64,000 nucleotides of DNA from Halorussus pelagicus (GTDB lineage Archaea; Halobacteriota; Halobacteria; Halobacteriales; Haladaptataceae), in contig NZ_CP035119.1 in NCBI RefSeq assembly GCF_004087835.1, forward strand, positions 2,480,001 through 2,544,000, in the 5' to 3' direction. Both the position numbers and the translations under genes were made by a program. Positions 55,190 through 56,297 of the stretch are shown here, piece after piece; within the stretch, counting starts at the first letter, position 1; every line of letters begins with the position of its first letter. The notes beneath the pieces were generated by a model. That model did not search any database. It was not told the origin of the DNA and worked only from the letters and a program-made list of their open reading frames with translations.

Positions 55190-55609
55190 TTAGCGTGGGC
55201 AGGCTCTTTCCGACTGAGTTAGGATCACTCCCTTGCCGTCGTCTTGTATACGGACGACGACGCTCAAACAGTCGCTTTCTTCCGGATTTTCGAGCGTTCG
55301 TTGTCGCCACGGACCATCGTCTATTTTTATGGCGACAGTGTGTTTCCCAGAGTCTTTTTCCCAGCCATCGGATAAGACGTAACCGCCTGTAACTTCGTCT
55401 TTCTGTGCACTCGCGGTCCGTTGGTCAGCAAAAATGACTGAATCTTCCCGAAGAAGGACGATACTCACTTCGTGCCGTTTTTCATTGGAATTTATAACTC
55501 TGATAAATTCAATATTTGTTCTAGAATTATGTTCCATGAATGAAGTACAACCGCTAAGCGCGAGACTACCTGCGAAAGTCGTGGTGAGAAATCTCCTCCT
55601 TGTTTTCAT
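55190..55609 (-). CDS. Tat lipoprotein of unknown function
   Basis: 139 residues from ATG 55609. Signal RRRFLTTTFAGSLALSGC has a Tat motif and lipobox. The mature part is beta-rich (EVSIVLLREDSVIFADQRTA, HTVAIKIDDGPW) and contains Cys pairs near the end. Codon use is more AT-rich than neighbours, suggesting acquisition with the adjacent amidase. A TATA-like TTATTTTAA lies about 28 nt upstream. Family not recognised. Confidence 0.75.
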   Translation of the reverse strand: MKTRRRFLTTTFAGSLALSGCTSFMEHNSRTNIEFIRVINSNEKRHEVSIVLLREDSVIFADQRTASAQKDEVTGGYVLSDGWEKDSGKHTVAIKIDDGPWRQRTLENPEESDCLSVVVRIQDDGKGVILTQSERACPR

Positions 55610-55688
55610 CAATATACAGCTTCCTTCTTTCACTTCTTAAAATAAATGATGTTTAAATATGAGCTGGGAAACGGTCGTCAATTTGGAA

Positions 55689-56297
55689 TTAGGAATGGTT
55701 GACGAGGTCGATGAAGTAGTCCCAGTCCCAGTTGTCGCCGGGGTCGGTGTGGGAACTGCCGGGAACTTGGTCGTGGCCGATGATGCCGCCCGTCTCGTTG
55801 TCTCCCGCGTTAGTAGGCACGTAGGTGGCGCGCTGTTTCGGGATGCCGTACTGCTCGCAGAGGTAGGCGACGAGGTCGGCCGACTTCTGGAGTTGGGCGT
55901 CCTCGTAGGTGCCGCTGACGTAGCCGCCGTGTTCGATGCCGACGGAGGACTGGTTGTAGCTCCAGTCGCCCGCGTGCCAGCCGACGTTGACCTCCGAGAG
56001 GCTCTGGTAGAGGTAGCCGTCTTCGGCGACGGTGAAGTGGGCGCTCACGTTGGCGTCGGGGTTCTGGAACCAGCTAACCGCACCGCTGGCCGACCCTTGG
56101 ACCGTGTGAATGATGATCCAGTCGATCTCGGCTCCACCGCGGTTCGCACTCGTGTAGTTGCTGGAGTCGGCTGGCACCCACTCGACATCCGGCATGTCCG
56201 CCGCCGCGATTCCCGAGAGGGCACTCGCGCCAGCGAGACCGGCCGTGCTTGCCGCACCGAGCTTCTTGAGGAAGTTTCTTCTGGAACTCATGCGCAT
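55689..56297 (-). CDS. Tat-exported N-acetylmuramoyl-L-alanine amidase (Amidase_2 domain)
   Basis: 202 residues. Signal SSRRNFLKKLGAASTAGLAG directs Tat export; no lipobox, so it is probably released. The amidase fold shows a zinc histidine in DWIIIHTVQG, the GWHAGDWSYN region, GIEHGGYVSG, and IIGHDQVPGSSHTDPGDN with the second His and the Asp. This enzyme class cuts between the sugar and peptide of bacterial peptidoglycan, which archaea do not have. A role against bacterial neighbours is therefore likely. TATA-like TTATATTA lies 26-32 nt before the two possible ATGs (56297, 56291). Confidence 0.88.
   Translation of the reverse strand: MRMSSRRNFLKKLGAASTAGLAGASALSGIAAADMPDVEWVPADSSNYTSANRGGAEIDWIIIHTVQGSASGAVSWFQNPDANVSAHFTVAEDGYLYQSLSEVNVGWHAGDWSYNQSSVGIEHGGYVSGTYEDAQLQKSADLVAYLCEQYGIPKQRATYVPTNAGDNETGGIIGHDQVPGSSHTDPGDNWDWDYFIDLVNHS

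Follow-up and report, generated by a model that had tools for sequence, protein, structure and literature searches.

A conserved Amidase_2 enzyme of Halorussus pelagicus with a Tat signal, and homologues in a haloarchaeal gene cluster that looks like peptidoglycan catabolism

The amidase locus

The window, a stretch of 64,000 nucleotides from the Halorussus pelagicus chromosome (NZ_CP035119.1, positions 2,480,001 to 2,544,000), contains a gene for a putative exported amidase and, next to it, an AT-rich open reading frame (ORF). The features of the locus, in window coordinates, are the following:

55190-55633, minus strand: AT-rich ORF for a Tat lipoprotein (GC 0.46, MKTRRRFLTTTFAGSLALSGC lipobox)
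55689-56297, minus strand: predicted Tat-exported, single-domain zinc N-acetylmuramoyl-L-alanine amidase (Amidase_2) of 202 aa, assigned by profile, fold and conservation
56199-56297, minus strand: Tat signal region, residues 1-33 (SRRNFLK ... SGIAAA), recognized by TIGR01409, with an inferred cleavage site
55692-56198, minus strand: mature catalytic domain, residues 34-202, with a predicted AmpD/PGRP fold (AlphaFold model, match to AmpD, conservation)
55782-55823, minus strand: haloarchaea-specific insert, residues ~159-172, directly before zinc ligand H175 (alignment)

The amidase ORF starts with ATG. The gene was recovered at the same chromosomal place in eight other Halorussus genomes (loci L176-L180 and L182-L184), where it adjoins the methylmalonyl-CoA mutase gene in all eight cases and the same 69-aa ORF in seven; several further Halorussus genomes are without the amidase. 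The window amidase is a resident chromosomal gene. Comparison with four orthologues (Nei-Gojobori) yielded a dN of ~0.10-0.13, a dS of 0.37-0.52 and a pairwise dN/dS of ~0.2-0.3, and, judged by these rates, the gene is under purifying selection. The orthologue of H. litoreus (genome G003; L184:8855-9449, minus strand) is split across two frames, owing either to decay into a pseudogene or to a sequencing error. Scans for bacterial promoters and terminators are poorly suited to archaea.

The AT-richer Tat lipoprotein that the first-pass annotation had pointed out as a possible partner or surface anchor of the amidase is a real ORF. It lies within an AT-rich insertion of ~0.5 kb that is missing from the two loci that were compared in detail, and the eight orthologous amidase loci yielded no homologue of the lipoprotein. 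The nearest homologue (68% identity) is encoded in genome G014, on another contig than the amidase of that genome, and the family as a whole is widespread at low identity, with homologues in 45 of 98 haloarchaeal genomes. By these comparisons the insertion and the lipoprotein it carries are species-specific, and a role as partner of the amidase was ruled out because the orthologous loci hold no homologue; one as surface anchor is likewise unsupported.

Sequence and structure of the amidase

Residues 56-188 match Pfam family PF01510 (E 7e-33; 114.2 bits against a cut-off of 26), and residues 5-33 match the Tat signal model TIGR01409 (E 3e-4; 21 bits against a cut-off of 16.7); the signal boundary was drawn without a dedicated prediction tool and the cleavage site is therefore an inferred one. 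All three zinc ligands (H64, H175 and D185) are present, as is the catalytic glutamate, E122. Among 132 homologues, H175 and E122 were found in every one, H64 in 131, and either Asp or Cys at position 185 in all 132, the Cys occurring as third zinc ligand in one haloarchaeal subgroup of the alignment. Cys is also the third zinc ligand in T7 lysozyme and in PGRPs. The catalytic residues had initially been described as intact; this holds for the zinc ligands and E122 and needs correction at the position of the catalytic Lys of AmpD, which is occupied by His (H183, in the motif SHTDPG). Since His is found at that position in 54 of 56 bacterial relatives as well, it reads as a feature of the family and not as a defect. 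The original proposal, that an archaeon of a murein-free group encodes an exported Amidase_2 protein whose metal site is intact, was in this way confirmed by PF01510, TIGR01409 and the residues H64, H175, D185 and E122.

The mature protein is strongly acidic (pI 4.1, 24 D/E versus 4 K/R) and the GC3 of its gene (0.85) is similar to that of the neighbouring genes. An AlphaFold model built from 79 homologues reached a pLDDT of 96.9 and a pTM of 0.93, and superseded an earlier model that was based on 23 close sequences only (pLDDT 66). The best structural match of the model was AmpD (2y2c; Z 19.6, 2.0 A over 149 residues, 28% identity) and T7 lysozyme matched with a Z of 13.8; the solved structures recovered in a profile search were those of AmpD, AmpDh2, AmiD and XlyA. 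Profile, zinc ligands plus Glu, and the fold common to AmpD, T7 lysozyme and PGRPs all place the protein in the Amidase_2 family. It falls outside the AmpD equivalog of cytosolic recycling amidases (NF008758), with 49.8 bits against a cut-off of 143 and a Tat signal present. A Pfam scan of the protein recovered the single Amidase_2 domain and no wall-binding domain. The gene is the only one with PF01510 in the 3.49-Mb genome. Altogether, the sequence and the model suggest that the window gene probably encodes a conserved, exported and active amidase.

Distribution and origin

PF01510 was found in 65 of 392 Halobacteriales genomes, leaving 327 without it, and in 4 of the 247 genomes of a phylum-wide sample, three of which are Halobacteriales. 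The bacterial relatives of the amidase are actinobacterial, or belong to the phylum of genome G395 (probably Myxococcota) or to WOR-3. In a tree of 83 domains, from which the columns of the insert were left out, all haloarchaeal rows fell on one side of a branch with 100/99 support. When phage outgroups were added the archaeal group was again obtained with 100/99 support and was nested within the bacterial diversity, in a tree whose long outgroup branches make the root unsure. The sampling was seeded from the window protein, and bacterial branches outside the sample could split the archaeal clade. The insert before the second zinc ligand is present in 76 of 76 archaeal rows, with variable length and an invariant G171; that column is a gap in 53 of the 56 bacterial rows.

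The bacterial ancestry that had been proposed for the gene is supported by this phylogeny and can be refined: because the haloarchaeal sequences form one strongly supported clade and have the insert in common, the simplest reading of the sequences is a single old transfer from bacteria, followed by duplication. A recent transfer was ruled out by the host-like GC3, the acidic composition, the common chromosomal position and the monophyly. A viral origin was considered as well and rejected: no relative was confirmed among viral contigs, and the phage endolysins among the matches listed showed ~29-34% identity.

The haloarchaeal clade is a mix of modular and single-domain forms, and includes longer paralogues of which some carry PG_binding_1 or SH3_3. 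A twin-arginine motif (SRRxxLK-type) occurs in 63 of 76 archaeal homologues. Very long open frames (~730-870 aa) in which Amidase_2 is fused to further regions were observed at loci L047, L073, L074 and L115 (genome G226), the last of these having SH3_3 repeats and a DUF900 alpha/beta hydrolase beside Amidase_2.

A NamZ-NagZ-AnmK cluster around close homologues

Plasmids of H. limi, H. vallis and H. aquaticus carry homologues that are 62-63% identical to the window amidase, each within a conserved cluster. Encoded there together with the amidase are NamZ, NagZ, AnmK, a serine hydrolase of the beta-lactamase fold, a peptide ABC importer, GH18 and a creatininase, and this genomic association of an amidase with NamZ, NagZ, AnmK, the hydrolase and the importer in haloarchaea is what is new here. 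One example is:

H. aquaticus plasmid NZ_CP100402.1, 242026-260613: NamZ-NagZ-AnmK cluster (L191; further examples are L185, L190 and L235-L249)

NamZ belongs with the muropeptide rescue system of Bacillus subtilis. Pfam confirmed AnmK, both NamZ domains, GH3, the beta-lactamase fold, GH18 and SBP_bac_5 in the cluster, where NagZ is a GH3 enzyme by annotation. The same cluster recurs in Haladaptatus and other haloarchaea, mostly without an amidase inside it, and genomes G059 and G380, which belong to other families, have the amidase within ~3-12 kb of NamZ. Most of the clusters examined also have, close to NamZ, a gene for a 391-aa protein with no Pfam match (L191:10901-12076, plus strand), which is annotated as a putative glycoside hydrolase in H. 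limi and is possibly a new muropeptide-sugar enzyme. In the literature searched we found no published report of a haloarchaeal NamZ or muropeptide pathway; the 2011 ten-genome survey (PMC3102087) mentions a beta-N-acetylhexosaminidase in connection with chitin only.

The association extends to whole genomes: 21 of the 26 genomes with NamZ also have PF01510, against 65 of 392 across Halobacteriales (Fisher p 7e-14), and the co-occurrence was also recovered outside the family of the window species (Fisher p 5e-4), in tests that count related genomes as independent. Within that family, NamZ was found in 15 of 28 genomes and AnmK in exactly those 15. Since NamZ is missing from 8 of the 23 amidase-bearing genomes of the family and from the window genome itself, the amidase is independent of the cluster. 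AnmK is likewise absent from the window genome, so that a complete muramate pathway was ruled out there and the species falls outside the NagZ-AmiE-NamZ system.

None of the 28 family genomes encodes a match over the cut-off of the curated MurQ etherase (TIGR00274). Candidates for a classical MurQ were rejected as sub-threshold matches of ~70-100 residues that are likely to reflect shared sugar-isomerase domains. As far as the family's gene content shows, the muramate branch as it is known is incomplete; cleavage of the lactyl ether may fall to another member of the cluster in place of MurQ. In H. aquaticus the amidase has a Tat motif and NamZ, GH3 and AnmK have none within their first 60 residues, a pattern that fits cutting outside the cell, import, and breakdown inside. 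From its gene content, the haloarchaeal cluster looks like one for peptidoglycan catabolism.

Putative role of the amidase

The archaea of this group lack murein (PMC12352652), and an exported murein amidase therefore has no known substrate in its host. The explanation that we favour, with moderate confidence, is that of a salt-adapted, Tat-exported murein amidase with a mainly nutritional role and possibly a secondary role in killing. The exported enzyme would hydrolyse the MurNAc-L-Ala bond to the stem peptide of bacterial peptidoglycan outside the archaeal cell, and so strip stem peptides off wall fragments and off dead or weakened bacteria. The freed peptides would be imported and used, as would the muropeptide sugars in relatives with the full cluster; living bacteria may also be killed, as a by-product or in a second use of the enzyme. 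That the window amidase acts on murein, does so outside the cell and serves peptide salvage is what we infer, its substrate and activity being read from the family; for the window species the support extends to the salvage of peptides only, as its genome has neither NamZ nor AnmK.

The cluster and the co-occurrence of NamZ with Amidase_2 point to feeding on bacterial peptidoglycan, and the gene neighbourhoods of the related species suggest that wall material is eaten at least as much as bacteria are fought. For the close relatives of the window amidase the cluster is specific evidence on the side of scavenging, and it moves the likely role of the enzyme away from weapon and towards food. Somewhat more tentatively, we consider it plausible that the Haladaptataceae and some of their relatives feed on peptidoglycan by means of a dedicated cluster, in which a secreted amidase and GH18 would act outside, a peptide-type ABC importer would take up the products and NamZ, NagZ and AnmK would process them inside, the window gene then providing the exported first step, retained for stand-alone peptide salvage in a lineage without NamZ and AnmK.

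It had first been proposed that the enzyme targets bacterial competitors, and lysis is indeed possible, but the cluster context of the close homologues favours the catabolism of peptidoglycan. A secreted antibacterial weapon that lyses living halophilic bacteria, like Woldo and Danwoldo of Halogranum salarium, has a haloarchaeal precedent, as killing was shown for these two Tat-exported hydrolases (PMC12352652), and would agree with the PG_binding_1 or SH3_3 domains in sister clades of the family and with the patchy distribution (65/392 genomes). We nevertheless regard it as unlikely to be the main role: the window protein lacks a wall-binding domain, its gene is a stable chromosomal one, syntenic in nine Halorussus genomes and not plasmid-borne, it has no neighbouring gene for immunity, regulation or delivery, and the close homologues neighbour catabolic and import genes. 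For the window copy taken by itself, the absence of NamZ and AnmK makes weapon and scavenger inseparable.

A substrate other than murein, of the host or the environment, such as an S-layer glycan amide or a peptide conjugate, appears improbable. Some peptidoglycan-type catalytic domains are able to cut other bonds (PMC12352652), and the haloarchaeal insert is next to the metal site in the sequence; however, the lack of the gene in 327 of 392 haloarchaea and in several Halorussus genomes speaks against a housekeeping wall enzyme, and the linkage is with NamZ and AnmK, families that have murein sugars as their named substrates. A non-catalytic, muropeptide-binding sensor of the PGRP kind is most improbable, for although some relatives are annotated as peptidoglycan recognition family proteins and PGRPs have the same fold, conservation covers the glutamate and all three zinc ligands, and AmpD, the top structural match, is a catalytic amidase and not a receptor PGRP.

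Comparison with known systems

Archaeal secreted peptidoglycan hydrolases that kill bacteria have already been published by Strock et al. 2025 (PMC12352652). Their survey took in only proteins that combine the catalytic domain with one or more wall-binding domains, because catalytic domains may act on other bonds, and left scavenging open, with an Opp-type uptake pathway enriched in the hydrolase-bearing archaea (PMC12352652). Measured against their modular hydrolases, the window amidase has the export signal (TIGR01409) and no binding domain; since the latter was required, single-domain enzymes of this kind lie outside that survey. The clade described here adds such enzymes, which a modular-only survey would miss. 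The NamZ-NagZ-AnmK cluster makes the question of weapon or feeding raised by Strock et al. directly testable, within one culturable genus whose species differ in whether they have the cluster and in whether they have the amidase. Woldo and Danwoldo are, like the window protein by prediction, Tat-exported haloarchaeal peptidoglycan hydrolases; they combine an M23 peptidase or a glucosaminidase with PG_binding_1 and their killing was shown, whereas the window protein is a lone Amidase_2 domain with a sequence-based assignment.

With the AmpD/Amidase_2 amidases (AmpD, AmiD, AmpDh2, XlyA) the window protein has the fold, the H-H-D zinc site, the catalytic Glu and the TDPG motif in common, and it differs from them in its predicted Tat export, its very acidic composition, the His in place of Lys and the insert ahead of zinc ligand H175. 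Secreted amidases of actinobacteria, for instance a Streptomyces plasmid protein, are 42-49% identical over most of the window protein, have the same HTDPG motif and include single-domain copies, but they lack the haloarchaeal insert and fall on the other side of the 100/99 branch.

The muropeptide rescue of Bacillus subtilis by NagZ-AmiE was reported by Litzinger et al. 2010, as cited in PMC3102087. As in the NagZ-AmiE-NamZ rescue, the haloarchaeal relatives encode an amidase, a GH3 NagZ-type enzyme and NamZ, to which an importer is added. They differ in that AnmK is present and a curated MurQ was not found, and the window genome has neither NamZ nor AnmK. The archaeal hosts make no peptidoglycan, and what serves recycling in B. 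subtilis would consequently serve feeding in them.
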